A DNA stretch of 64,000 nt from Desulfomicrobium baculatum DSM 4028 (lineage in GTDB: Bacteria > Desulfobacterota > Desulfovibrionia > Desulfovibrionales > Desulfomicrobiaceae): the NCBI RefSeq assembly GCF_000023225.1, contig NC_013173.1:2606501-2670500 (forward strand). Direction: 5' to 3'. Numbering within the stretch: the stretch's first letter is position 1; every line of letters starts with the position of its first letter. This document shows positions 1 through 35,152 of this stretch, one piece after another. Below the pieces are notes generated by a model. The model saw only the letters and a list, made by a program, of their open reading frames with translations. It was not told the DNA's origin and did no database searches. A program made the translations under genes and the position numbers.

Positions 1-156
1 CTCATGGCCATACCCTCCATCGTGGGCCTGATGATGGGCTCTTTCGTGGGTGTGCGTCTGCTGGCCATCGCCAAGCCCACATTCATCCGCTACATGGTCA
101 TCGGCGTGCTGCTCTTCGCAGGTGGAAAGGCACTGGCCAAGGGCCTGGGCTTCTAA
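1..156 (+). CDS. Sulfite exporter TauE/SafE-type permease, C-terminal end (partial)
   Basis: Only the last 51 residues are inside the window; the reading frame runs in from the left edge and stops at 154-156. The visible piece is two hydrophobic stretches separated by a short polar loop (residues around RLLAIAKPTFIRY) and ends in a small basic tail, as the last helices of TauE/SafE (DUF81) permeases do. These inner-membrane proteins export sulfite or sulfonates, or move related anions. The 27-bp gap to the next gene, which has its own Shine-Dalgarno, suggests co-transcription with the signalling genes that follow. The family call rests on a short fragment and on the context. Confidence 0.55.
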   Translation, partial: LMAIPSIVGLMMGSFVGVRLLAIAKPTFIRYMVIGVLLFAGGKALAKGLGF

Positions 157-183: not shown

Positions 184-603
184 ATGAATAAACCCGATAC
201 CAACGCGCCTGCCGAACAGATCGCCTACGCAAACATCCTCTTCTACGGATGTTGGGGCGGCCTTGCGCTCATGCTTGTCACATACGTGCTCTACGTCACC
301 GGCATCATGGATCCCTACGTGTCCATGGACAACGTGATCAAATACTGGGCGCTGCCCGTAGGCCAGTACCTCGCCGACAACAACGTGCCCAACGGCTGGG
401 GCTGGGCAACTCTGCTGTCCAATGGCGACTTCCTGAACTTCCTTGGAATCGCGCTCCTGGGCGGCCTGACCATCGTGGCCTATATCCCGGTCACCCTCGC
501 CTACTTCAAGAAAAAGGACTTCGCGTTCGCCATTATCGCGCTCCTTGAGGTCCTTGTCCTCTGCTTCGCGGCATCCGGAATCGTCGGAGGCGGCGCGCAC
601 TAA
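184..603 (+). CDS. Small inner-membrane protein of unknown function, partner of the upstream permease
   Basis: 139 residues with a clear AAGGAG Shine-Dalgarno 8 bp before ATG. Three hydrophobic segments can be seen: about residues 20-42, 85-105 and 113-133. A polar, Trp-containing loop lies between the first two and would sit on one face of the membrane. The layout is like the small DUF1634-type membrane proteins that often accompany TauE/SafE permeases, but no catalytic motif is visible, so I give no activity. Its position between the permease and the regulator gene makes an accessory subunit of the transporter, or a link between transport and the signalling proteins downstream, the most likely job. 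This is inference. Confidence 0.6.
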   Translation: MNKPDTNAPAEQIAYANILFYGCWGGLALMLVTYVLYVTGIMDPYVSMDNVIKYWALPVGQYLADNNVPNGWGWATLLSNGDFLNFLGIALLGGLTIVAYIPVTLAYFKKKDFAFAIIALLEVLVLCFAASGIVGGGAH

Positions 604-614
604 AGGAGAGGCTC

Positions 615-1847
615 GTGCTCAAACGGATTGAAGAATTGATCGGCACCAATTGCCCGGACCTGCCCTCCCTGCTGGACGGGCTGCCCGTTGGGGTGGCCCT
701 CCTGGACGAAGAGGGACATGTCCTCATGCTCAACAAGGCCCTCGAAGCTTTGACCGGCTACAACCGGGAAGAAGTGCGCGGACTGCCTTGCCGGCACGTC
801 CTGCGCAGCCGGGCCTGCCTGCAGGACTGCCCTCACGGGCGCGAGGCCGCTGCAGGAGTCGGAATTGAGACCGATTGCATCAACCGTCACCACCGCAAGA
901 TTCCCATCCGCATCACTCCGGTGCGCGTTCTGGACGGCAACAACCGCCCGATCTGCGTGCTCGATGTGGTTGAAGAATTGACGGCCTTGCGGGAAATTGA
1001 GGCGCGCCTGTCCCAAGCTGCGGATCATGGCCAGATTGTCGGACGCAGTCCGGCCATGAAAAAGATTCTCGGCCTTGTGCCGGTCATCGCCCAGCACGAC
1101 ACTGCGGTGCTGATCACCGGCGAGACAGGCACGGGCAAGGATCTTTTGGCCGAATCCGTGCACAAGGCTTCGCCCAGATCACGCGAACCCTTCGTGCGCT
1201 TCAGTTGCGGGCCTATGCCCTCCGAACTGCTCGACGCCGAACTGTTCGGACGCATGCAGGGACCCGACGGAGAGTTCAAGCCGGGCCGATTTCAGCAGGC
1301 TCAGGGCGGAACCCTGTACTTGTCGGAGATCGCGGATCTGCCGCTCTCCCAGCAAAGCAGTCTGGTCAGGTTTCTGGATGAAGGAACCATTCTGCCTGTC
1401 GGCGCGGGCAAACCCCTGCGCGCGAGCGCCCGGCTCATGGCTTCCACCGCCGAGTCACCGGAAAAACTGGTTCAGGACGGCCGTCTGCGGGAAGATCTTT
1501 TTCATCGCATTTCAGCCATCCGCCTGCACCTGCCCAGGCTCAAGGACCGCGCGGAAGACCTTGGATTTCTGTTGCACCATTTCATGGGCCATTATGCGGC
1601 GCGTTTCAAAAAGGATATCAGCGCCATCAGCCCAAGAGCCCAGCGCCATGTCTACGCCCACGATTTTCCGGGCAACGTGCGGGAACTCAAAAACATCATG
1701 GAATTTGCCGCCATGGTCTGCAACGGCGATACCATTCGGACCGAACACCTGCCCATGCATTTGACCGACGACGTCGAGCCTGAATCGGTTGTCCGACCGG
1801 TGGAGAAAGGCCGCAAAGCCGGCCGCAAGAACACAGAGGAGCGATAG
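615..1847 (+). CDS. PAS-AAA protein related to sigma-54 activators but lacking GAFTGA and the DNA-binding domain
   Basis: 410 residues starting at GTG with AGGAGAG just upstream. An N-terminal PAS domain (about 15-120) carries C59, C68, C72 and C88. An AAA+ domain follows (about 135-370) with an intact Walker A (GETGTGKD) and a normal RxDLFHR region. Where sigma-54 activators have GAFTGA after ELFG, this protein reads RMQGPDGEFKPG. The Walker B Asp-Glu is changed to Ser-Glu (LYLSEI). After the NVREL region the protein ends in a basic tail (GRKAGRKNTEER) with no Fis-type helix-turn-helix. It therefore should not open sigma-54 promoters by the usual mechanism and may instead act as a sensor or as a partner of another activator. 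The next gene starts 3 bp downstream. Confidence 0.8.
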   Translation: MLKRIEELIGTNCPDLPSLLDGLPVGVALLDEEGHVLMLNKALEALTGYNREEVRGLPCRHVLRSRACLQDCPHGREAAAGVGIETDCINRHHRKIPIRITPVRVLDGNNRPICVLDVVEELTALREIEARLSQAADHGQIVGRSPAMKKILGLVPVIAQHDTAVLITGETGTGKDLLAESVHKASPRSREPFVRFSCGPMPSELLDAELFGRMQGPDGEFKPGRFQQAQGGTLYLSEIADLPLSQQSSLVRFLDEGTILPVGAGKPLRASARLMASTAESPEKLVQDGRLREDLFHRISAIRLHLPRLKDRAEDLGFLLHHFMGHYAARFKKDISAISPRAQRHVYAHDFPGNVRELKNIMEFAAMVCNGDTIRTEHLPMHLTDDVEPESVVRPVEKGRKAGRKNTEER

Positions 1848-1849
1848 CA

Positions 1850-2203
1850 ATGGAACGCCGCGTGCTGATCACCGTCGCCAAGGACGAAATCGCCCCTCGC
1901 TTCGATCTGACGACCGAAGCGCTGTTGCTGACCATTTCCGATGGTGGAGAAATCGTCTTGCGCAAGTCCTTTCTTCTGGCTTACGCTTCCGGAGACGAAC
2001 TGTGCGACCTGGCCCTTTCCCGGGACATCGGGACCATCGTCTGCGGAGGCATTGAGGACGAGTATTACCACTATCTGCGCTGGAAGCGCATCGACGTCAT
2101 CGACTCGGTCATGGGTCCGGTGGAACGCGTTGTCTCCCGCCTGACGGAAGGAGCACTCAAAGCCGGAGACATTCTCTACGACCGGGCAATGGAAACGACA
2201 TGA
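1850..2203 (+). CDS. NifX/NifB-fold (dinitrogenase Fe-Mo cofactor-like) small protein
   Basis: 117 residues. The N-terminus (RRVLITVAKDEIAPRFDL) has the alternating hydrophobic pattern and the (I/V)APRFD motif of the NifX/NafY superfamily, whose members bind or carry iron-sulfur or iron-molybdenum clusters. The C-terminal half (GTIVCGGIEDEYYHYL, then a helix ending near VSRLTEGAL) fits the ribonuclease-H-like fold. One Cys lies in the GTIVCGGI strand and could serve in ligand binding. It sits 3 bp after the degenerate activator and overlaps the kinase gene by 4 bp (ATGA), so translation is probably coupled. In ORP loci similar proteins accompany sigma-54 regulators; its exact ligand is unknown. 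Confidence 0.75.
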   Translation: MERRVLITVAKDEIAPRFDLTTEALLLTISDGGEIVLRKSFLLAYASGDELCDLALSRDIGTIVCGGIEDEYYHYLRWKRIDVIDSVMGPVERVVSRLTEGALKAGDILYDRAMETT

Positions 2204-3915
2204 AAAAAATCCTGTCCGGCCCCATGGAAGCCATCAAGGCCGATCTGGCCACGGTGATCAATTCTCCCGACCGCTATAAGCTGCTGCGGCGCAAGATCGT
2301 CTCGCTCATGGCCCTGGTCACGCTGCTCCCGCTGCTCTCGCTGGCCGCAATAAACTATTACGAACACCAGAACTCCATGTCGGCCGAAATCCAGGCCCCG
2401 TTGCGCTCGCTGGTGGGCAAGGCCAAGCATTCTTTCGAGCTGTTCCTGGCCGAACGAACCTCGGCCATCAGCTTTATCGCCTCGGCCTACTCTTTCGACG
2501 AGCTCTCAAATGACGCCAATCTGCAGCGCATCTTTCAGGTCATGCGCCGCGAATTCACCGGGTTTGTGGATCTCGGACTCATCGATGTGGCCGGCAACCA
2601 GGTCAGCTATGCGGGTCCGTACGATCTCAAAGACCGCAATTACACGTCCCAGGACTGGTTCCACCAGGTCCAGTTCAAGGGCACGTATATCAGTGACGTG
2701 TTCCTGGGTTTCCGCAAATTTCCCCATGTGGTCATCGCGGTGCGACACACCACAGAAAGCGGCCAGTCGTGGATTCTGCGCGCCACCCTCGACACCATGC
2801 ATTTCGACCGCATCATCTCGGCCATGGGCCTGGAACCAGGCAGCGACGCTTTTCTGGTCAACCGCAACGGAATCCTGCAAACCGAATCTCGTCGTTACGG
2901 CAAGGTGCTGGACATGTTGCCCTTCGACCTGCCCCCAACAAATTTTGAATCCAACGTGCAGGGCATCCGCGACCCCGATCAAAACGACATCTTCATCGCC
3001 TCGGCTTTCATCGCCGACTCGGATTTCGCCCTCGTGGCCGTCAAGCTCAAGCCGACGGCCTTCAGCACCTGGTACACGGTGCGCCTGGACCTGCTCGTCA
3101 TATTTGTCACCGGCGTCATTTTCATCTTCATGGCCGTCTACCGCTTGACCAGCGTGCTGATCAACCGTCTGCAGGAGAGCGACGAGCAACGCCTGGGCGC
3201 CATCCACCAGATGGAACATTCCCAAAAGCTGTCCTCCATCGGTCGCCTGGCCGCGGGCGTCGCGCATGAAATCAACAACCCCCTGGCCATCATCAACGAA
3301 AAGGCCGGACTCATGCGCGATATCATGGAACTCAGGCCCGATTTTCCGGAAAAAGATAAATTCTCCAAACAAATCGAGTCCATCCTCAGATCCGTGGACC
3401 GTTGCCGGGGCATCACCCATCGCATGCTCGGCTTTGCCAAGCGCATGGATGTAAAGATCGAAATTCTGGACCTGAACGCCGTGCTGGAGGAGACCCTCGG
3501 TTTTCTGGAACGCGAGGCCCAATACCGCAACGTGGAACTAAAGCGTGAACTGTCCAAGAACCTGCCAAGCATCGCCACCGATCACGGCCAGATCCAGCAG
3601 GTCTTCCTGAACATTTTGAACAACGCCCTGGCCGCCGTGCCCGACGGAGGACGAATCGTGCTCTCGAGCTGGAACGTGGACGATCATTACGTCGCCATTT
3701 CCATCGAGGACAACGGTTGCGGCATGTCCGAGGAAACGGCCAAAAACATGTTTGAACCGTTTTTCACCACCAAAAAAGAAAAAGGCACCGGGCTCGGCAT
3801 GTCCATCACGTACGGCATCGTCAAACGCCTGGGCGGAGAGATCAAGGTCAAGAGCAAACTGAACGAGGGCACCACAATGACCATCCTGCTGCCCAAACAC
3901 CCCGTGGAAGGTTAA
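2200..3915 (+). CDS. Membrane sensor histidine kinase with a periplasmic Cache-type domain
   Basis: 571 residues. A first membrane helix lies at about 33-53 and a second at about 295-318. They enclose a 240-residue periplasmic region of double-Cache (dCache) character (YTSQDWFHQV, SQSWILRATLD-like strands) that would bind a small ligand. The cytoplasmic part has a HisKA helix with His356 in GVAHEINNPL and a HATPase_c domain with the N box (LNILNNALAAV), DNGCGM and the GTGLGMSI G2 box. It should autophosphorylate and pass phosphate to one or more of the four receivers in the same operon. The gene overlaps the upstream stop by 4 bp and is followed after 2 bp by a receiver gene. Confidence 0.92.
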   Translation: MKKILSGPMEAIKADLATVINSPDRYKLLRRKIVSLMALVTLLPLLSLAAINYYEHQNSMSAEIQAPLRSLVGKAKHSFELFLAERTSAISFIASAYSFDELSNDANLQRIFQVMRREFTGFVDLGLIDVAGNQVSYAGPYDLKDRNYTSQDWFHQVQFKGTYISDVFLGFRKFPHVVIAVRHTTESGQSWILRATLDTMHFDRIISAMGLEPGSDAFLVNRNGILQTESRRYGKVLDMLPFDLPPTNFESNVQGIRDPDQNDIFIASAFIADSDFALVAVKLKPTAFSTWYTVRLDLLVIFVTGVIFIFMAVYRLTSVLINRLQESDEQRLGAIHQMEHSQKLSSIGRLAAGVAHEINNPLAIINEKAGLMRDIMELRPDFPEKDKFSKQIESILRSVDRCRGITHRMLGFAKRMDVKIEILDLNAVLEETLGFLEREAQYRNVELKRELSKNLPSIATDHGQIQQVFLNILNNALAAVPDGGRIVLSSWNVDDHYVAISIEDNGCGMSEETAKNMFEPFFTTKKEKGTGLGMSITYGIVKRLGGEIKVKSKLNEGTTMTILLPKHPVEG

Positions 3916-3917
3916 TC

Positions 3918-4310
3918 ATGGATATGAATACATGGAACATCCTCTTGGTGGACGATGAAGTCGATTTCATCGTCACCCTGGCCGAACGTCTGGAACTCAG
4001 AGGAGTCAACGCCCGGGTTGTCCATGACGGAGAAGCGGCGCTGAAGGCCGTGGCCGACAATGTGCCGCAGGTGATTGTTTTGGACGTCATGATGCCGGGA
4101 ATGAAAGGAATCGAAGTCCTGCAGAAGGTCAAAAGCGAACACCCCAAGGTCAAGGTCATCCTGCTCACCGGACAGGGCAAGACGCGCGACGGGATAGAAG
4201 GCATGCACCACGGCGCCTTCGCCTATCTGACGAAACCCCTTGACCTTGAAGAACTTATCCGAACCATCGACGAGGCCATAAGCGAACCCGAAGGAACTCC
4301 ACATGCCTGA
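3918..4310 (+). CDS. Single-domain response regulator (CheY-like)
   Basis: 130 residues making up only a receiver domain. The acidic pocket VDDE (11-14), the phosphoacceptor Asp56 in VLDVMMPG, the Thr of LLTGQG and the Lys of LTKPLD are all in place. There is no output domain, so it must work through a partner or as a phosphate shuttle. It lies between the Cache kinase and the half-kinase protein, overlapping the latter by 8 bp, an arrangement expected of a phosphorelay intermediate. ATG is placed after GGAAGG; a second in-frame ATG lies two codons later. Confidence 0.93.
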   Translation: MDMNTWNILLVDDEVDFIVTLAERLELRGVNARVVHDGEAALKAVADNVPQVIVLDVMMPGMKGIEVLQKVKSEHPKVKVILLTGQGKTRDGIEGMHHGAFAYLTKPLDLEELIRTIDEAISEPEGTPHA

Positions 4311-4929
4311 AATCCCGAAAGAAGCGCGTTTCATGGGCACTGTCACGGCTCAGACCATGCATGAAATGCAAAACATCCTGGCCATTATCCGCGAATCGGC
4401 GGGACTCATGGGCGACATCCTCAAAGTCAACTCCAGGGTTGATTTCAAGCACAAGCCCAACATGGAACGGACCCTTGAGAACATCACCTTCCAGGTGGAC
4501 CGGGGCAAAGGGTTGCTCGACGCCACCAGCCGTCTGGCCCACACGCCGGACGCGGACCTGCTCGAAGGCTGCGACCTGACCGCCTACTCCAAAACCCTGG
4601 TCCAGTTGGCGGATCGTTACGTACGCTTGAAGGGCACGGCCTTGAACTTCAGCGCCCCGTCCACGGCACTGCCTGTTTCCATGGGCGCCCTGCAGGTGCT
4701 CATGAGCGGTTACAGGGCCCTGCAATGGGCGGTGGGTGCGGGCATGAAAGACGGCGTGATGCGTGTCGACCTCGAAGGCGGAACAGACTTTCATGTCCTG
4801 ACCATCTGTCCCCCGGAAGGGGTCACTCCCGACCGGGAGGGAATCGCCGCTTTGGGGACGATGCTTGAACCGGGACGCGTGGAATGGGACGGCAGTCGGC
4901 TGCAACTCTTTTTCCCCGTTCAGCGCTAA
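4303..4929 (+). CDS. Histidine-kinase-like dimerisation/phosphotransfer protein without a working ATPase domain
   Basis: 208 residues. The first 60 residues match a HisKA helix pair: His20 sits in MHEMQNILAIIRESAGL, which parallels the HEINNPLAIINEKAGL box of the neighbouring kinase. The rest is the size of a HATPase domain but has no recognisable N box Asn, no DxGxG and no G2 glycine loop. Features like these are known in ChpT and Spo0B, which are phosphotransferases that evolved from kinases and dimerise through the HisKA helices. I infer that this protein shuttles phosphate between the receivers on either side of it (3918-4310 and 4953-5336). It has no membrane segment. An inactive kinase acting as a scaffold is the alternative. 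Confidence 0.7.
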   Translation: MPEIPKEARFMGTVTAQTMHEMQNILAIIRESAGLMGDILKVNSRVDFKHKPNMERTLENITFQVDRGKGLLDATSRLAHTPDADLLEGCDLTAYSKTLVQLADRYVRLKGTALNFSAPSTALPVSMGALQVLMSGYRALQWAVGAGMKDGVMRVDLEGGTDFHVLTICPPEGVTPDREGIAALGTMLEPGRVEWDGSRLQLFFPVQR

Positions 4930-4952
4930 GAACACAATCGCGGCAGGAGCAC

Positions 4953-5336
4953 ATGGACGAACCCAGCATTTTACTCATCGATGATGAAGAGGCATTCGTG
5001 ACCACGCTGCAAGAGCGGCTAGAGATGCGCGGATTCTCCGCCGCTGTTGCGTTTGACGGCCAAAGCGGGCTGGACATGATCGCCACGAACCCACCCGATG
5101 TGGTCGTGCTTGACCTGCGCATGCCGGGGATCAGCGGGGTGGAAGTATTGCGCCGCATTCGCAAGCAGTGGCCCGGTCTCCCCGTGATCATGCTCAGCGG
5201 CCATGGTTCGGACCTGGATTTTGAGACCTGCATTCATCTCGGGGCGGCGATGTACCACAAAAAACCCTTGGACATCAGTACGCTGATCGACAGCGTCCAC
5301 GCCGTGACCCAAGGCAAACAACAGCCTTTGCGGTAG
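4953..5336 (+). CDS. Single-domain response regulator (CheY-like)
   Basis: 127 residues from the ATG that follows AGGAGC; a longer frame upstream (from 4884) lies inside the preceding gene and is not needed. The receiver signature is complete: IDDEE (9-13), phosphoacceptor Asp54 in VLDLRMPG, LSGHGS, and Lys in YHKKPLD. There is no output domain. It follows the half-kinase gene by 23 bp and precedes the receiver-kinase hybrid by 6 bp. It could be the acceptor of the half-kinase or a phosphate sink; the sequence does not say which. Confidence 0.92.
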   Translation: MDEPSILLIDDEEAFVTTLQERLEMRGFSAAVAFDGQSGLDMIATNPPDVVVLDLRMPGISGVEVLRRIRKQWPGLPVIMLSGHGSDLDFETCIHLGAAMYHKKPLDISTLIDSVHAVTQGKQQPLR

Positions 5337-5342
5337 AACGAT

Positions 5343-6491
5343 ATGGTACGAGTCCTGGTCGTTGATGACGAACGCGATTTCACGGATCTGCTCTCCGAGC
5401 GGCTGCGCACGCGCGGCATGGAGGTCAGGACAGCGTACAACGGGCAGGAGGCATTGGACGTCGCGCGGATCTTTGCACCGGAGGTCGTGGTGCTCGACAT
5501 CACCATGCCGGGCATGAGCGGGATTGAAACCATGTACGCGCTGCGAGCCGAAAAGCCCGCGCCGGAAGTGATTCTGCTCACGGCAGACACCACCCTGGGC
5601 ACGGCTGTCGCCGGAATGAAAGGCGGCGCGCGGGATTACCTGACCAAGCCGACCGACATAGACACCCTTGTGTCGGCCATCGGGGAGGCCGAAGGGCGAC
5701 GGATGGAAAACATGTCCAGGCAGCGCATGGCGGAAACGGCCAAGCTTGCCGCCCTGGGAGAACTGGCTACCGGCGTGGCCCACGAGATCAACAACCCGTT
5801 GCAGGTGATACTCAATGAAGCGGGCTGGATCGAAGAAATCCTGGGCGAAACGGCCCTTGAGGGCAACAGCCGGGAACAGATTCTTGAATCCATCGCCCTG
5901 ATCCGGCGTCAGGGCCTGCGCTGCAAGGCCATCACCTCCAAGCTGCTGACTTTGCGGTGCGCCCTGGACGCAAAAGGAGCGACCACGAATTTGCCCGATC
6001 TGGTGCACGAAGTTCTCATTGCGCGCCGGGCGCAAATCGAAAAGATGGGCATCCGGGTCGAAAAGCACTGGCCGGAGCAGTTGCGCGAAGTGAAGCTGCC
6101 GGATTCGGAATGGAGCCAGATCCTTGGCAACCTTGTCGACAATGCCATGGACGCCCTCGAATCGACGCCCGCCGAAGAACGTCTGCTGACGATTCAGGCC
6201 GACGTCGACGATGCGGAGCTCATTATTTCGGTTCAGGATTCGGGCTGCGGTATCGAAGAGCATCTCTTGACGCGAATTTTCGAACCCTTTTTCTCCACCA
6301 AGGAGGTGGGCAAGGGAATTGGACTGGGGCTGGCTATTTGTCACGGCATCATCGAGGCCATGGGAGGGAGCATCTCCGTGCGCAGCACCCCTGGGCATGG
6401 ATCGACCTTCACCATAAAGGTGCCCATGGCCGTGCATGCGCACAACGAACATAACGGGCCGGAAAACCCGGCATCTGCCAAGGAGGAATGA
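5343..6491 (+). CDS. Hybrid receiver-histidine kinase, soluble
   Basis: 382 residues. An N-terminal receiver domain (1-120) has VDDE and phosphoacceptor Asp52 in VLDITMPG. It is joined to a HisKA domain with His147 in GVAHEINNPLQVIL and a complete HATPase_c (NLVDNAMDAL, DSGCGI, GIGLGLAI). There are no membrane helices, so its input is phosphorylation of the N-terminal receiver rather than an outside ligand. This REC-kinase order is typical of second-tier kinases that integrate upstream phosphorelay output. The Shine-Dalgarno is weak. The stop codon overlaps the first possible ATG of the next gene. Confidence 0.92.
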   Translation: MVRVLVVDDERDFTDLLSERLRTRGMEVRTAYNGQEALDVARIFAPEVVVLDITMPGMSGIETMYALRAEKPAPEVILLTADTTLGTAVAGMKGGARDYLTKPTDIDTLVSAIGEAEGRRMENMSRQRMAETAKLAALGELATGVAHEINNPLQVILNEAGWIEEILGETALEGNSREQILESIALIRRQGLRCKAITSKLLTLRCALDAKGATTNLPDLVHEVLIARRAQIEKMGIRVEKHWPEQLREVKLPDSEWSQILGNLVDNAMDALESTPAEERLLTIQADVDDAELIISVQDSGCGIEEHLLTRIFEPFFSTKEVGKGIGLGLAICHGIIEAMGGSISVRSTPGHGSTFTIKVPMAVHAHNEHNGPENPASAKEE

Positions 6492-6493
6492 AC

Positions 6494-6913
6494 ATGAACA
6501 AGATGAAGCTTCTGATCGTGGACGACGAGAAGGATCTGTGCCGCATTCTCGCCGACCGCCTCAATATTCTTTACGGTGTGTCCCCGGATGTGGCCCATAC
6601 CGGCGACGACGCCCTGGAGATGGTCAAGAAAAAGAGCTATGATGTCGTGGTCCTCGACATCGAAATGCCCGGCATCGACGGCATCGAGACCCTGAAACAG
6701 ATCAAGGCCATCAACTCCAAGATCCAGGTCGTGCTCTTCACCGGACACGGCAGCGAGGAGACCCGCCGCCTGGCCGAGGTCATGGGCGCGTTCAGCTATG
6801 TCGACAAGATCGACGGTCTGCCGAAACTCGCCCCCATGATCGAGGGCGCCTTCCGTCTGCGCAAGGTGCTTGAAGACACCTACGCCGACGCGGCCATGAA
6901 CGAGTACAACTAA
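6494..6913 (+). CDS. Single-domain response regulator, last gene of the signalling operon
   Basis: 139 residues. I start it at 6494 because AGGAGG (6481-6486) sits 7 bp from that ATG; an ATG at 6488 lies only 1 bp from the same site. Receiver motifs: VDDE (9-12), phosphoacceptor Asp55 in VVLDIEMPG, FTGHGS, and Lys in VDKIDG where the usual Lys-Pro is Lys-Ile. The C-terminal tail (residues 120-139) is acidic and ends AMNEYN. No output domain is present. It is probably the final acceptor of the hybrid kinase encoded immediately upstream. A strong hairpin follows within 3 bp of the stop. Confidence 0.9.
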   Translation: MNKMKLLIVDDEKDLCRILADRLNILYGVSPDVAHTGDDALEMVKKKSYDVVVLDIEMPGIDGIETLKQIKAINSKIQVVLFTGHGSEETRRLAEVMGAFSYVDKIDGLPKLAPMIEGAFRLRKVLEDTYADAAMNEYN

Positions 6914-7407: not shown

Positions 7408-7785
7408 CTATTGACCACCGCCGCAGGTGTATTCCTGGGTGAAAGGCACCAACGCGCCCTTCAGAAGCGCGTCCACGGCTGTTCCGACACTCGGCGCGCC
7501 GGCGCCATAAAAAACCTGGATGCCGACCTGATTGAATCCCATCAGCGGACGCATGCCCATGCCGCCGGCGATGAGCAGGTTGACCCCGTTGCTGGCCAAA
7601 TGCTGGACCGGGGCCATGCATCCGCCCTGGGCGTGAGGGACGTTGGGCAGGGTGCTGACCTGGGCCACGGAACCGGCCTCGACGTCAATGATGGTGTACA
7701 GGTCGCAATGCCCGAAATGGGCGCCGACTTCCGCTTCAAGTCCGCCCGGAAGCGCCGAGGGGACTGCAATTCTGACTTTTTCCAT
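7408..7785 (-). CDS. NifX/ORP-type cluster-binding protein
   Basis: 125 residues from the ATG at 7785 (AAGGAG upstream). An upstream GTG at 7812 would add a segment that does not look conserved. The protein shows the NifB/NifX-family pattern: RIAVPSALPGGL at the start, AHFGHCDLYTII, a cysteine in GGCMAPVQHL, LIAGGMGMRPL, and a C-terminal tail EYTCGGGQ. The HFGHC motif and the last Cys resemble metal-binding positions in the orange protein of Desulfovibrio, which carries a Mo-Cu-sulfide cluster. It is the downstream partner of two ferredoxin-MinD ATPases, as in ORP operons. The actual cofactor cannot be told from sequence. Confidence 0.78.
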   Translation of the reverse strand: MEKVRIAVPSALPGGLEAEVGAHFGHCDLYTIIDVEAGSVAQVSTLPNVPHAQGGCMAPVQHLASNGVNLLIAGGMGMRPLMGFNQVGIQVFYGAGAPSVGTAVDALLKGALVPFTQEYTCGGGQ

Positions 7786-7812
7786 AAACGTGTTTCTCCT
7801 TGTTCGATACAC

Positions 7813-8685
7813 TTATGATTGCAAAAGATTCGTGATCGTCTGCCACGCCTGCCGAACCTGCGTGGCGATGGCGCTGTCTTCACCTTCGGTAATGGCCTGC
7901 CGCCGGACCATGGCTTCGGTGACCGCCGTGTCATGAGGCAGCAAAGCAGCCAGTGTGTACCCCTTTTCCTTGCACAGCGCACCAATTCGACTTGTTTGCT
8001 CGGGATTGAGGTCATGCTTGTTGACCACGACGGCGACTCTGGTGCGAAAATGATCGCACAGGCTGGCCACCCGTTCCAGATCGTGCACGCCCGACGGAGT
8101 GGGTTCGGTCACGACCACGGCCAGATCCGTCTGCGAAAGGGAGGCGATGACCGGGCAGCCGATGCCCGGCGCGCCGTCACACAAAATAAGCTCCAGGCCG
8201 CGCTCTTCGGCGAGTACCCGGGCTTCCTTCTTCAGGCGCGAAACCAGAAGGCCCGAGTTTTCCTGTCCGGGGAAAAGCTGCGCATGCACCATCGGGCCGA
8301 ACCGGGTCTCGCTCATGTAATGCTGCCCGCAATGCCTTGCGGGAAAATCTATGGCCTGTTCAGGGCAGAACGCCACGCAGACCTTGCACCCTTCGCAGCG
8401 CAGCGGGGCGACGCTGAAAACACCGTCCTTCTCGTCGATGGCGTCGTACCGGCACATGGATGCGCAGAGGCCGCAGCCCGTGCATTTTTCAGGATCGATG
8501 ACCGCTTCATGTCCGGAAATGAACCTCTCATCGCGGATGATGGTGGGGTCCAGCAAAAGATGCAGATCCGGCGCGTCCACATCCAGGTCGCAGATCACCT
8601 TGCTCTCGGCCAAGTGGGCGAACGCCGCCGTCAGGGAGGTTTTCCCGGTGCCGCCCTTGCCGCTGATCACAACTACCTCACGCAT
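7813..8685 (-). CDS. MinD/ParA-type P-loop ATPase with a two-cluster ferredoxin insert
   Basis: 290 residues. The deviant Walker A (SGKGGTGKTS, residues 8-17) with its signature Lys places it in the MinD/Mrp ATPase family. Residues 63-115 are a ferredoxin insert with two full four-Cys motifs (CTGCGLCASMC and CEGCKVCVAFC) for two [4Fe-4S] clusters. A switch region follows (DGAPGIGCPV). It pairs with the adjacent homologue (8678-9547), with which it overlaps by 8 bp, as the DVU2103/DVU2104 pair of the D. vulgaris ORP complex does. There such ATPases are tied to the orange protein and to septum placement. A role in cluster assembly or division here is inferred. Confidence 0.88.
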   Translation of the reverse strand: MREVVVISGKGGTGKTSLTAAFAHLAESKVICDLDVDAPDLHLLLDPTIIRDERFISGHEAVIDPEKCTGCGLCASMCRYDAIDEKDGVFSVAPLRCEGCKVCVAFCPEQAIDFPARHCGQHYMSETRFGPMVHAQLFPGQENSGLLVSRLKKEARVLAEERGLELILCDGAPGIGCPVIASLSQTDLAVVVTEPTPSGVHDLERVASLCDHFRTRVAVVVNKHDLNPEQTSRIGALCKEKGYTLAALLPHDTAVTEAMVRRQAITEGEDSAIATQVRQAWQTITNLLQS

Positions 8686-9547
8686 GGCGGACCTCCTTGG
8701 CTAGCTGACGCAAGTCCCGGCCCAGCTTGGAAAACAGCTCGCCCAGATCCGCATCCAGTTCGGCCAGGATAAATCCCTTGGAATAATGCTCCGCGATGTC
8801 GCGGCGATAGGGGATTTCCGCCAGGATCGGCAGGTTCTGGACCGCGCAGAATTCGTAGACACGATGGTCACCCAGGCCGGCCCGATTGATGACCACGGCG
8901 ATGGGCTTCTCGTAAGGGGAGAAGGCTTCCCAGGCCAGTTTGAAATCATGAAATCCGAACGGAGTGGGCTCGGTGACAAGCACGATGACATCGCTGTCGG
9001 CCACCGCGCTCATGGCCGGGCAGCTCACCCCGGGAGGGGCATCGACCAGCACGTCCATGGACTTGGCGGCACTTTCCGCGCGCATGCACGAACGCACGTA
9101 GCGCATGAGCGGCGGGCTCATGGCCTCGCCGACTCGCAGCCGTCCGGTCAGGCACGGCAGCGTGCCGCGGACAACGCCGCGCTCCATGACGCCAAGCTCA
9201 CGCATGCCCACGCCGATGGCGCCTTCGGGACAGATGGCCATGCACCCGCCGCAGCCGTGACACATCTCCGGAAAGGTCATGATGGCCTTGCCCATGACCG
9301 CGATGGCCTTGAACTGGCACAGTTCCGCGCACTTGCGGCAGTATGTGCATTTGCTCTCGTCCACTTCGGGGACTTCTATGGTCACGACTTCGGTGTCCGT
9401 GACCTCAGGTTTCAAAAAAAGATGAAGATTTGGCTCTTCCACATCCAGATCAACGGCCATCACAGGCCGTGACCACGACACGGCCAGCGAGGCCGTGACC
9501 GTGGTCTTGCCCGTGCCGCCCTTTCCGCTGGCAACCGATACGATCAT
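8678..9547 (-). CDS. MinD/ParA-type P-loop ATPase with a two-cluster ferredoxin insert (second copy)
   Basis: 289 residues and the same architecture as its neighbour: Walker A SGKGGTGKTT near the N-terminus, then a ferredoxin insert with CTYCRKCAELC and CHGCGGCMAIC, then VDAPPGVSCPA. The two proteins are clearly paralogous but diverged, which suggests a heterodimer. The start ATG follows GGATG. The stop overlaps the start of the next gene (ATG at 8685), indicating translational coupling. In the family, ATP binding drives dimerisation and hand-over of a cluster or movement on a surface; which applies here is unknown. Confidence 0.88.
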   Translation of the reverse strand: MIVSVASGKGGTGKTTVTASLAVSWSRPVMAVDLDVEEPNLHLFLKPEVTDTEVVTIEVPEVDESKCTYCRKCAELCQFKAIAVMGKAIMTFPEMCHGCGGCMAICPEGAIGVGMRELGVMERGVVRGTLPCLTGRLRVGEAMSPPLMRYVRSCMRAESAAKSMDVLVDAPPGVSCPAMSAVADSDVIVLVTEPTPFGFHDFKLAWEAFSPYEKPIAVVINRAGLGDHRVYEFCAVQNLPILAEIPYRRDIAEHYSKGFILAELDADLGELFSKLGRDLRQLAKEVRHA

Positions 9548-9556
9548 GGTGACATC

Positions 9557-10249
9557 CTATCTGTTTGGAGAGTCCGTGAATTCAACCTTGCCGGCCTTGA
9601 ACGCTTCCACCGCATCGGCCACGGTGCCGCCGTTCATGTTGTGGCCGATCTTCACGCCTCCACCCTTGAGGGCTGTAAACGCCTTGGGCCCGACGCTGCC
9701 GGTCAGAAGCACCGAGGCTCCGGCATTGATGATGTTTTCGGCGGCCTGAATGCCGGCCCCGTGCGACAGGGTCTGGGAGCCGCCGTTGTCGATGTACGTA
9801 GATTCCATGGTCTCAAGGTCGACGACGACAAATCCCGCGGCCCGCCCAAAACGCGGATCAACGCGATCAGTCATGCTCGGGCCTTCACTAGTTATGGCTA
9901 TCTTGGTCATGCTAAGCTCCTTGCTGCGGGCCGCCACACGGTCCGGATACAGTTGTAGACACGGCATCTTGGCATCATGGGCGATGTGCAGAGCAAGCCC
10001 CTCCACCAGCGCCTTGGTCACGACGCGACGGGCATCGCCAAGGATACGGCCGAAGGTGTGCCGGGAGACGTGCATGCGCTCGGCACCCTCTTCCATGCTC
10101 AGGCCCTCGTAGTCGGCCAGGCGCAGGGCTTCAAAACCGTCCATGGTCAGATATACTTCCGTCAGTTCGCGCAGGGGAATTCCCTGCGGCTTGAAAAACG
10201 ACGCCTTGGGACATCCTTCGATGCGGCGACATTTCCTGGGTCGTGGCAT
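9557..10249 (-). CDS. DUF134 DNA-binding domain fused to a NifX-type domain
   Basis: 230 residues with GGAGG before ATG. Residues 1-105 are a DUF134 domain (MPRPRKCRRIEGCP, then a helix-turn-helix SMEEGAERMHVSRHTFGRIL). Residues 114-230 are a NifX-type domain (MTKIAITSEG, DPRFGRAAGFVVVD, NAGASVLLTGSVG). The join is unusual: ATG at 9910 (residue 114) has its own AAGGAG 6 bp upstream, so a separate NifX protein could be made from the same message. Fusing the two links a possible cluster sensor to a DNA-binding domain. It lies 9 bp before the MinD pair in the same operon. Confidence 0.85.
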   Translation of the reverse strand: MPRPRKCRRIEGCPKASFFKPQGIPLRELTEVYLTMDGFEALRLADYEGLSMEEGAERMHVSRHTFGRILGDARRVVTKALVEGLALHIAHDAKMPCLQLYPDRVAARSKELSMTKIAITSEGPSMTDRVDPRFGRAAGFVVVDLETMESTYIDNGGSQTLSHGAGIQAAENIINAGASVLLTGSVGPKAFTALKGGGVKIGHNMNGGTVADAVEAFKAGKVEFTDSPNR

Positions 10250-10262
10250 GGCACCTCCATTT

Positions 10263-10276
10263 TGCTCAAACGAGCA
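10263..10276. promoter_or_regulatory. Short inverted repeat upstream of the DUF134-NifX gene
   Basis: TGCTC-AAAC-GAGCA forms a perfect 5-bp inverted repeat just before the Shine-Dalgarno of the fusion gene (start 10249) and 1 bp from the stop of the Gly-rich gene. It could be an operator for one of the DUF134 regulators. It is short, so chance is not excluded. Confidence 0.3.
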
Positions 10277-10277
10277 T

Positions 10278-10532
10278 TTATTCCTCCGTTTTCACGGTGT
10301 CAATCCCCGGGGACTGCGGAGCCTGTCCATCCGTCAAGCAGGATCCGTCGCGACGCACGCGCCCCTGCCCGGCTCCTCCCTTGGCGCCAGCACCGGCTCC
10401 GGCTCCTCCCTGGACACCGGCTCCGGTTCCGCAACCCGGACGCCTCCCGCGGCATCCGCCGCCCTGACCGCCCTGTCCGCGTCCACCCTGGCCTCGTCCT
10501 CCGCCACCGCCTTGTCCTGTTCGTCCCGGCAT
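10278..10532 (-). CDS. Gly-rich small protein, out of frame inside the end of the DUF134 gene
   Basis: 84 residues from an ATG with AAGGAG 7 bp upstream. The protein begins MPGRTGQGG and is dominated by Gly/Gln/Arg repeats with three spaced cysteines, ending CLTDGQAPQSPG and an acidic tail. Small proteins starting MPGGDGTGP (DUF5320 type) regularly sit beside DUF134 and NifX genes, and this looks like a diverged member. It overlaps the reading frame of the upstream DUF134 gene by 199 bp in another frame. The strong ribosome-binding site and the family-like start favour it being real; low complexity leaves some doubt. Confidence 0.6.
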   Translation of the reverse strand: MPGRTGQGGGGGRGQGGRGQGGQGGGCRGRRPGCGTGAGVQGGAGAGAGAKGGAGQGRVRRDGSCLTDGQAPQSPGIDTVKTEE

Positions 10533-10912
10533 GACCTTTCTCCTTGCGTTTGCTCCGTACCCCTGGCGCAGCTCTTGCCGCGCAGGCAACACGGAGTCAT
10601 TTCCTCAAAGTCCGCACCCGTCACGGTGTGCTCTCCATCAACATCGATGCGCAAAGCCCAGCCGCGCGAGAGCGCACGCGCCACCTGGGTCCTGGCCTCT
10701 CCCAGAATACGGCACAGGGTCGGCCGGGAAACCCGCATGCGGGAGGCGGCCTCTTCCTGGCTCATCCCTTCGCCGTCCACCAGCCGCATGGCCTCGAAAC
10801 CATCGAGCCCCAGCACCACGCCGTGCAACCGCCCCATGGGCACTCCCACCGGCTTGAAAACCGTCACGGCAGGCACATCGGCCACAAATCTGCATTTTCT
10901 CCTGCGCCCCAT
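10334..10912 (-). CDS. DUF134 family DNA-binding regulator
   Basis: 192 residues from ATG 10912, which follows GAGGAGGGG; an earlier start at 10963 lacks support. Residues 1-110 are the DUF134 domain: MGRRRKCRFV, a helix-turn-helix SQEEAASRMRVSRPTLCRIL, then a beta region. CCLRGKSC after residue 120 could bind metal. Beyond about residue 140 the frame reads through the gene of the Gly-rich protein and is an alternating Arg/Glu/Pro tail unlike the family, which normally ends earlier. Either the genes truly overlap or an indel removed the old stop. First gene of the operon, so probably an autoregulator. Confidence 0.75.
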   Translation of the reverse strand: MGRRRKCRFVADVPAVTVFKPVGVPMGRLHGVVLGLDGFEAMRLVDGEGMSQEEAASRMRVSRPTLCRILGEARTQVARALSRGWALRIDVDGEHTVTGADFEEMTPCCLRGKSCARGTEQTQGERSCRDEQDKAVAEDEARVDADRAVRAADAAGGVRVAEPEPVSREEPEPVLAPREEPGRGACVATDPA

Positions 10913-10928
10913 TCGCCCCTCCTCTATA

Positions 10929-10944
10929 TTGAAACTATGTTCAA
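10929..10944. promoter_or_regulatory. Inverted repeat upstream of the DUF134 operon
   Basis: TTGAA-ACTATG-TTCAA lies 17 bp before the start codon of the DUF134 gene at 10912. Its position in the promoter or leader and its dyad symmetry suit an autoregulatory operator; no other support. Confidence 0.3.
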
Positions 10945-11244
10945 AATAATCCCGCCATGCCAACCTGTCAAGGACCCTTCTGAAAAACAGGCGGCAACTT
11001 TTTTTTCATGAGCAATTTTAATTGCAGAATGACATGCCCACCATGCGGACTCTTTCCGCCGAAACCGATCTTCATTTGTCAATTTTTATTGCAAAAGCCC
11101 GACTACAAACACTCTCGTTTCGCTTGGCCGTACCCAAACCTGAAACGCGCGCCGGTTCTTTATCATACATAACATTCTGAATTTAATATATTTTTAAAAA
11201 CGGTATTAAAAAAACAAGATTATTCGACCCGCCACGATGCGTTC
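10945..11244. other. Intergenic region between divergent operons, AT-rich
   Basis: About 300 bp with no convincing reading frame. The middle and right parts are AT-rich (runs such as TTTAATATATTTTTAAAAAC near 11180-11200) and would bend easily, as upstream regions of sigma-54 promoters often do. Promoters for both the - strand DUF134 operon and the + strand transporter operon must lie here or at its edges. I found no clear -35/-10 pair. Confidence 0.5.
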
Positions 11245-33756: not shown

Positions 33757-33786
33757 CAAAAGAGTAGCGTGCCGGCTACTCTTTTG
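33757..33786 (-). terminator. Terminator overlapping the end of the sigma-54 regulator gene
   Basis: A perfect 12-bp inverted repeat CAAAAGAGTAGC / GCTACTCTTTTG with a 6-nt loop. It covers the last codons and the stop of the regulator gene and would end its message before the sigma-54 promoter of the next operon. Confidence 0.75.
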
Positions 33787-35152
33787 CGGGAGATCGGCCG
33801 TCGCGTTCAGGCAGGGCCATGCCAAGACGCTTCATGCGCCGAAAAAGCGTGGTCTTATGGATGCCGAGCTCCCGCGCTGCGGCCAATCGATTGAAATCAT
33901 TATGTTCCAGGGCCGCGTGGATGGCCTGCCTGTCGAGCATGTCGTGCATGGTGCGGCCTGCGGCGAAATGTCCGCGCGGGGCAAGAAGTGTCAGTTCGTC
34001 CGGCAGATGGTCGATATCGATGCATCCTTCACCGCACAGCACGAAGGCCCGCTCGATGCTGTTCTCAAGCTCCCGGATGTTGCCCGGCCAATCATGGGCC
34101 ATGAGCAAAGACAGTGCCTCGGTGCTGATGCCCGTGACCGTGCGGCCCTGGATGCGATTGAGGCGACGGATGAACTGCTCAACCAAGAGGGGCAGGTCGT
34201 CCTTACGCTCGCGCAAGGGGGGCAGTTCCAGCCGGATGACATTGATGCGATAATAAAGGTCTTCGCGGAATTCACCAGCCCGAATCAGCTCCGTCAGGTT
34301 GCGGTTGGTGGCCACGATGACGCGGGCGTCGGTGGATTCGGTTCCGGAGGAGCCGAGCGGCTCGAAGGTCCGCTCCTGCAATACGCGCAAAAGGCGCACC
34401 TGCAGGGCCGGGCTGATCTCCCCGATCTCGTCCAGAAAAATTGTCCCGCCCCGGGCCTGGGCAAAGCGGCCGAGCCGGTCGCGGGTTGCCCCGGTGTAGG
34501 CCCCGGCCTTGACGCCGAAGAGTTCGGATTCAAGCAGGGTGTCGGGCAGGGCCGCGCAGTTGACGGCAATGAAAGGCCCGCCGGCGTGAGCGCTCAGGGA
34601 ATGGATGGTGCGGGCGAAGAGCTCCTTGCCGGTGCCGGTCTCTCCGGTCAGCAGGACTGTGCTCGGGCTGGCGGCGATGGCGGGCAGCATGGAGAAGAGC
34701 TTGTGCATGCGCGGGCTGCGGCTGAAGAGCTCGCCGACATGGTAGCGGCCTTCGAGCTCGCGCTTGAGCGCGTCGATTTCCGAAAGATCGCGGAATGTCT
34801 CGGCCCCGCCCATGACCTGGCCGCTCTCGTCGCGGAACACCGCCGTGGACACGCTGATGGGGATGCGGTCCCCCTGGGCCGTGATGATGTATCCGCAGGT
34901 GCCGATGCGGGGCTTGCCGCTCTGAAGCGTGCTCTGCAGGGGACAGTTGTCGCCGCACAGGCTGGAGCGGAAAACCTCGGAACACAGCCGCCCGATGGCC
35001 TCGGAGCGCGGCACCCCGGTGATCTCTTCGGCGGCCCGATTGAAGGACGTGATGCGCCACTGGGGATCGACGGTGAATACCCCATCGGAGATGCTCTCAA
35101 GAATGGCGTCCGTGGGCGTGCGTACGGTGGGGTTCTTTGTAGGCGAGGACAT
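33776..35152 (-). CDS. PAS-containing sigma-54-dependent activator linked to the ORP operon
   Basis: 458 residues. A PAS domain (about 14-125) carries C57, C66, C70 and C86. The AAA+ domain (about 145-375) has GETGTGKE, intact GAYTGAT at the GAFTGA position, FLDEIGEIS and arginine finger REDLYYR. A Fis-type helix-turn-helix ends it (NRLAAARELGIHKTTLFRRM). No receiver domain, so the PAS domain itself is the sensor. Position and architecture match the DVU2106-type regulator of D. vulgaris orp operons. Confidence 0.93.
   Translation of the reverse strand: MSSPTKNPTVRTPTDAILESISDGVFTVDPQWRITSFNRAAEEITGVPRSEAIGRLCSEVFRSSLCGDNCPLQSTLQSGKPRIGTCGYIITAQGDRIPISVSTAVFRDESGQVMGGAETFRDLSEIDALKRELEGRYHVGELFSRSPRMHKLFSMLPAIAASPSTVLLTGETGTGKELFARTIHSLSAHAGGPFIAVNCAALPDTLLESELFGVKAGAYTGATRDRLGRFAQARGGTIFLDEIGEISPALQVRLLRVLQERTFEPLGSSGTESTDARVIVATNRNLTELIRAGEFREDLYYRINVIRLELPPLRERKDDLPLLVEQFIRRLNRIQGRTVTGISTEALSLLMAHDWPGNIRELENSIERAFVLCGEGCIDIDHLPDELTLLAPRGHFAAGRTMHDMLDRQAIHAALEHNDFNRLAAARELGIHKTTLFRRMKRLGMALPERDGRSPAKE

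Follow-up and report, generated by a model that had tools for sequence, protein, structure and literature searches.

The GAFTGA motif (loop 1) is the part of sigma-54 activators that contacts sigma-54. In Desulfovibrio vulgaris Hildenborough, two members of this family are found at one sigma-54 promoter: DVU2956, which carries GAFTGA and has no N-terminal domain, and DVU2960, which carries GAFPGA and whose function was described as unclear (Kazakov et al. 2015, PMC4641369). Purified DVU2956 bound the DNA upstream of the operon in EMSA and DVU2960 did not; the operon from DVU2957 onward was assigned to DVU2956, and the authors proposed that activators without a sensor depend on a partner protein or on a cascade (PMC4641369). 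DVU2958 belongs to the TSUP family and is a candidate sulfate transporter (PMC5840216), and a review links DVU2956 to biofilm formation, citing an original study with H2S in its title (PMC8586430). Elsewhere, HrpR/HrpS, FleQ/FleT and the VnfA paralogues assemble together (PMC4145663, PMC11999139, PMC9542535), and FleT has been described as the only member of the family without both sensor and DNA-binding domains (PMC7175178).

We analysed a window of 64,000 nucleotides of Desulfomicrobium baculatum DSM 4028, in which the protein encoded at 615-1847 occupies a place like that of DVU2960, with a permease and a small membrane protein gene, a NifX-like gene, a divergent sensor-less activator and a sigma-54-like promoter (Table 1). 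The operon runs from a TauE/TSUP permease through the small membrane protein, the degenerate activator-like protein (EBP) and the NifX-like protein to a kinase and receivers, and the gene of the divergent activator is oriented opposite to the permease gene that heads it. Our main reading, to which we assign a probability of roughly 55%, is that the 615-1847 protein is a conserved, non-activating sensing partner of the divergent activator in a sigma-54 circuit confined to one operon.

Table 1. Features of the operon and of the degenerate activator-like protein; positions are those of the window unless a contig is named.
Feature	Position	Strand	Basis or remark
Divergent complete activator, 358 aa; GAFTGA, LFLDEV, HTH_8, no N-terminal domain	G000:C1:2604318-2605391	minus	~1.1 kb upstream of the window
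TSUP/TauE-family permease gene, 3' end, first of the operon, remainder outside the window	1..156	+	PF01925 match of G002 counterpart; DVU2958 literature
Small membrane protein, 139 aa, adjoining the permease	184..603	+	No Pfam family
Degenerate sigma-54-activator-like protein, 410 aa; PAS, AAA+, basic tail	615..1847	+	ORF, Pfam, orthologues, model
PAS sensor domain, residues 16-116; Cys motif C59-x8-C68-x3-C72-P	660..962	+	Pfam PF00989
Walker A GETGTGKD, residues 169-176	1119..1142	+	Lys invariant in 46/46 HTH-less copies
RMQGPDGEFKPG, shortened loop 1 at the GAFTGA place of canonical activators, residues 213-224	1251..1286	+	
Walker B LYLSEI, residues 234-239; Asp to Ser, catalytic Glu retained	1314..1331	+	
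Arg-finger motif RxDxxxR (R292-R298), retained	1488..1508	+	PspF RxDxxxR from PMC3419264
Basic, disordered C-terminal tail replacing the Fis-type HTH, residues 387-410	1773..1844	+	
NifX/ORP-like Nitro_FeMo-Co domain protein	1850..2203	+	PF02579 in 18/18 family members, best E 2.5e-7; fold
Sensor histidine kinase; sub-threshold dCache, HisKA, HATPase	2200..3915	+	Pfam
Single-domain response regulator	3918..4310	+	Pfam
Kinase-like small protein, conserved in the cluster	4303..4929	+	No Pfam match
Single-domain response regulator	4884..5336	+	Pfam
Receiver and histidine kinase hybrid	5343..6491	+	Pfam
Single-domain response regulator, only in some lineages	6488..6913	+	

The reading frame of the degenerate protein opens with GTG behind a ribosome-binding site. 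A first-pass annotation, made from the sequence alone, had reported an intact Walker A, RMQGPDGEFKPG in place of GAFTGA, LYLSEI as Walker B and a basic tail without a helix-turn-helix (HTH), and all of these are present. The Sigma54_activat domain (PF00158) spans residues 141-304 with 159 bits (cut-off 20.2), the lowest score of the 42 PF00158 matches (E <= 1e-20) in the genome, and AAA_lid_14 occupies residues 310-388. The protein has the AAA+ domain and lid of a functional sigma-54 activator (bEBP); the Asp-Glu pair of a bEBP Walker B is Ser-Glu, and the Pfam scan found no HTH family, Fis-type or other, in the protein. Sensor II R356 is retained, and the switch Asn is replaced by Ser. In the AlphaFold model, the AAA+ part is nearest to NtrC1, ZraR and LuxO (Z 28-29 over 245-250 residues), while the Lys/Arg-rich tail is predicted to be disordered (pLDDT below 50). 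The Cys motif of the PAS domain is common to most intact relatives too. One metagenome-bin copy (L020, G075:C53:4519-5715) has an in-frame TGA at the conserved second Cys codon of this motif (CRHVLRSxAC), which may be selenocysteine or a sequence error; it is the single case among 88 copies of the motif.

Searching 199 genomes of the order for orthologues showed the altered features to be ancient and conserved, with no close orthologue keeping GAFTGA and an HTH. All of them are shared by the orthologues in 13 genomes of the genus (own included; 71-100% identity), and this agreement places chance or sequencing error far from an explanation of the motif losses. In 30 aligned copies (71-100% identity within the genus, 50-66% in other genera), GAFTGA is absent throughout, Ser or Ala stands at the Walker B Asp place, every copy ends in a short HTH-less tail, and 29 of the 30 frames are open. 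Counted over the order, a degenerate protein without GAFTGA occurs in 62 genomes, in most of which the HTH is missing too. Within the genus, dN/dS of the gene is ~0.12-0.16 by a simple count (the TAUE row of this run, with its misframed segments, being ignored), similar to that of the adjacent genes and indicative of purifying selection. Among 46 HTH-less copies, the Walker A Lys and the sensor II Arg are invariant and the catalytic Glu position is Glu or Asp in all, while the two Arg fingers are kept in 35 and 39 copies. Since the fingers are not universal and the switch Asn is Ser in the 615-1847 protein, the chemistry of the ring is probably weakened in some lineages. The C-terminal tail is poorly conserved, being Lys/Arg-rich in many copies and nearly missing in some genera (copies L051, L054 and L055).

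Relatives outside the operon indicate the order in which these features were lost. At 19 loci elsewhere (L060, L061, L064, L069-L071, L073, L074, L076, L081-L085, L087-L090, L223), a relative adjoining a NifX-like gene retains both GAFTGA and the HTH in every case, and no common function was seen among the neighbours of these intact pairs. GAFTGA is missing from all 52 in-operon copies: that of genus g24 has GAFPGA and an HTH, and those of the other genera have GAFPWA-type remnants or a shortened loop and invariably no HTH. The HTH-less copies (35 rows) form a single clade with SH-aLRT 100, sister to the row with GAFPGA and HTH and with the intact forms outside, in a tree built by a quick method without loop columns and without bootstrap. 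Judged from the aligned sequences, loss is stepwise, from GAFTGA to GAFPGA with the HTH kept and then to GAFPWA-like remnants or deletion with the HTH lost, and the HTH-less form arose once. From gene order, the combination of GAFPGA and HTH and the published description, the g24 loci are probably of the DVU2956/DVU2960 type.

The same comparison removes one argument for lost activation. The first-pass annotation had read the absence of the Walker B Asp as a sign that activator function was gone, and an Asp-to-Ala change in PspF (D107A) does leave ~0.6% of the wild-type Vmax (PMC3419264). However, all 19 intact relatives, which have both GAFTGA and the HTH, carry Thr at this position, together with GKD in Walker A, so the substitution cannot be used as a sign of lost activation; the Asp was therefore lost first, while the other activator machinery was still kept. 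A compensating swap between the Walker A GKD and Walker B was considered and rejected: among 52 other activators, GKD occurs in two, both with an ordinary Walker B Asp, and the Asp is present in all, and there is therefore no independent covariation of the two motifs. What stands of the proposal that activator function was lost in favour of a sensor or anti-activator role is the conserved, ancient loss of motifs, with a sensing or anti-activator role as the leading class of explanation.

The partner suggested at first, the regulator encoded at 33776-35152, proved to be an ordinary, unlinked PAS-AAA-HTH_8 protein with a sensor of its own; the linked one is the divergent sensor-less activator. 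Among ~140 loci collected around the operon genes, a divergent activator with GAFTGA or GAYTGA, the Walker B DE pair, an HTH and no N-terminal domain adjoins every testable degenerate copy (51 of 51) and no intact EBP-NifX pair (0 of 19), counts that are phylogenetically dependent, as related loci are not independent and the independent events are few (one origin, two co-losses). Two loci were left out of this count, a fragmentary MAG (L249) and L173, the sole degenerate copy without the activator, whose contig begins near the permease. A Fisher value calculated with the spurious L249 hit still included is not to be taken as a probability. With the 30 aligned orthologues added, 62 genomes with the degenerate protein were checked and the activator was found in all (the G339 copy in two pieces). 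It occurs in 65 of the 348 genomes of the order, one per genome, and at the operon cluster wherever the locus could be read. That the degenerate protein is seen only beside a complete sensor-less activator suggests that the two proteins are one divided switch.

The intergenic DNA fits a narrow target for this switch. The palindrome CGGCAANNNNTTGCCG lies upstream of the operon, mostly between activator and permease, at all 51 loci with both proteins (<=1 mismatch), as against 0.13 loci expected from shuffles; no other permease locus has it (0 of 78). Of the 51 loci, 47 also carry a -24/-12-like site (<=2 mismatches), although the site of the present genome, TGGCATGGTCTTTGC, is by itself not above the chance expectation in 14 kb. 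From its position and co-occurrence, the palindrome is a putative binding site of the divergent activator. Exact copies number only three in the genome, all at the operon locus, which suggests a regulon of a single operon.

The operon's other genes raise a different explanation, which we regard as unlikely but the strongest of the alternatives: the degenerate protein would be a PAS/AAA+ sensor or scaffold working with the NifX-like protein and the kinase phosphorelay, never touching the activator, which would only transcribe the operon. The 1850-2203 protein falls below the PF02579 cut-off when taken alone and owes its family assignment to relatives; its model (pLDDT 94) matches PH0822 as well as ORP, NafY and NifX (the last three with Z 11-16). 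The link between this protein and its EBP neighbour, already proposed in the first-pass annotation, is supported, as the two genes stand side by side whether the EBP is intact or degenerate; this adjacency suits a scaffold, as do the tight packing of these genes or their overlap with the kinase gene and a co-evolution signal of the kinase equal to that of the activator. Distance co-evolution gave the degenerate protein partial r values of 0.56-0.58, alike for activator, NifX-like protein and kinase, and was discarded as a means of choosing between these partners.

Against a scaffold for the kinase stands the pattern of loss. In 14 loci of genera g12 and g36 (presumably Desulfovibrio-type, the name being our assignment), none of the trio of activator, degenerate protein and NifX-like protein is left. 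These loci (L175-L183, L196, L215-L218) have lost the palindrome as well, but still have the genes of the permease, the membrane protein, the kinase and the receivers. In the kinase phylogeny they form a clade nested within the trio-bearing clade, next to g24. At least two deletions are needed, because the permease and membrane protein genes, which separate the activator gene from the EBP-NifX pair, persist; L211, on a small contig, is a second, separate loss of the trio. The co-loss links the three proteins to one another and sets them apart from the kinase, so that a scaffolding role for it becomes less likely than first thought: kinase and response regulators persist without EBP, NifX-like protein and activator in 14 or more loci, 14 intact EBP-NifX pairs lack the operon's kinase, and a scaffold leaves unexplained why no degenerate copy occurs without the sensor-less activator. 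The NifX-like protein, which stays with the EBP in both forms and shares the co-loss, is probably part of the signal input.

Several further observations concern these gene families. One locus (L228, G451) has permease, membrane protein, NifX-like gene and kinase with neither an adjoining EBP nor a divergent activator. The 139-aa membrane protein type is found in 131 of 348 genomes of the order, beside a TauE/TSUP permease at nearly all loci read, and this pairing is seen across the phylum too; the protein is possibly a permease subunit. On the minus strand, window positions 7408-10963 hold a second, ORP-cluster-like Nitro_FeMo-Co system with two Nitro_FeMo-Co proteins (one a DUF134 fusion), a second DUF134 protein and two MinD-like ATPases, the scanned one of the 4Fe-4S type. 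A plasmid search gave no match.

Based on these findings, we propose that the non-activating partner had as its ancestor a complete activator of PAS-AAA+-HTH architecture, which was paired with a NifX-like protein. The output of this ancestor would have passed to a second, sensor-less, divergently encoded activator, the counterpart of DVU2956; the ancestral protein would then have lost a working GAFTGA first and, later on, what remained of loop 1 and also the HTH, while its PAS sensing, its ATP binding and (in most copies) its trans-acting Arg fingers would have been retained. In PspF, a subunit with a defective Walker B is rescued in trans by one with a mutated Arg finger (PMC3419264). The signal would be sensed by the PAS domain, alone or together with the NifX-like protein, and the degenerate protein would co-assemble with the divergent activator through nucleotide-dependent AAA+ contacts. 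As some subunits of such mixed rings would have no sigma-54 loop, activation would most likely be tuned or restrained; the degenerate protein would restrain or tune the activation of its own operon, and negative feedback is the most likely sign. We infer the physical contact of the pair, the ligand and the sign of the effect, for which a FleT-like promotion of assembly is the alternative.

We consider that opposite sign, by which the degenerate protein would be a positive co-subunit aiding assembly or promoter choice of the sensor-less activator, somewhat less probable still than the kinase scaffold. FleT does offer a precedent, having no DNA-binding domain, standing under FleQ control and forming hetero-oligomers with FleQ (PMC11999139); the 615-1847 protein likewise has no DNA-binding domain, and its gene lies within an operon whose control has been assigned to the presumed partner (PMC4641369). 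However, it has no loop 1, most of its clade has not even GAFTGA remnants, and without the loop it would be unable to remodel sigma-54 itself. With the palindrome present only three times in the genome, there are also few promoters to choose between.

Action through the basic tail as a DNA-binding regulator at sigma-70 promoters, in the manner of TyrR or VpsR, seems to us very improbable: the GAFTGA-less TyrR, HupR and DhaR do act with sigma-70 (PMC3162934) and the tail is Lys/Arg-rich in many copies, but there is no HTH, the tail is disordered, poorly conserved and nearly missing in the three copies named above, and even the HTH-bearing DVU2960 gave no shift of the operon's upstream DNA (PMC4641369). 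DVU2960-type proteins with an HTH might still bind some other DNA. The least credible reading, a functionless relic in slow pseudogene decay, can point to the several lost motifs and the in-frame TGA of L020, but is contradicted by the breadth of 62 genomes, purifying selection, full-length frames and a Walker A Lys and a sensor II Arg that do not vary.

Returning to the sensing partner of the divergent activator, we suggest, more tentatively than for the partnership itself, that sulfate reducers possess a sigma-54 activator split over two genes, with mixed AAA+ rings and sensed negative feedback on a single anion transport and signalling operon. Part of the same tentative proposal is the division of the halves, one supplying the sensor and a nucleotide-binding ring module but neither a DNA-binding domain nor a sigma-54 loop, and the other, without a sensor, contacting sigma-54 and binding DNA. 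Hetero-oligomeric sigma-54 activators are rare, and if our reading is correct, a family that keeps its sensor and ATP site while shedding both outputs beside a sensor-less activator shows how AAA+ activators can divide their labour. The natural intermediates (GAFTGA, GAFPGA, GAFPWA and deleted) are suited to testing how many subunits of a ring must contact sigma-54. The partner would also be a likely answer to a gap stated in the review (PMC8586430), namely what regulates the sensor-less DVU2956, for which a link with the control of biofilm and H2S is reported in D. vulgaris.

Several described systems are comparable with the 615-1847 protein and its operon. Its 1850-2203 neighbour has the fold of ORP/Nitro_FeMo-Co proteins (PF02579), but is paired with an activator-like protein and scores below the cut-off alone. 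TyrR, HupR, DhaR and VpsR have similarly lost or changed the sigma-54 contact motif; however, TyrR, DhaR and HupR are reported DNA-binding regulators at sigma-70 promoters, while the 615-1847 protein has no HTH. HrpR/HrpS and VnfA1/VnfA3 resemble the present pair in bringing two paralogous activator-family proteins to one promoter, but are described as co-acting activators, whereas one member of the present pair is without both the DNA-binding domain and the sigma-54 loop. FleT of Rhodobacter (Cereibacter) sphaeroides is likewise an activator-family AAA+ protein without a DNA-binding domain, expressed under and acting with FleQ; it differs in having no sensor domain and in a reported activating hetero-oligomer; the 615-1847 protein carries a PAS domain but no sigma-54 loop, and its contact with the activator is putative. 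DVU2960 shares the operon position, being a PAS one-component activator-like gene within a sigma-54 operon with a TSUP permease, under the control of the divergent, sensor-less DVU2956, but DVU2960 keeps the loop, with T changed to P, and the HTH, while the 615-1847 protein and 45 other sampled copies have lost the HTH and most of them loop 1.
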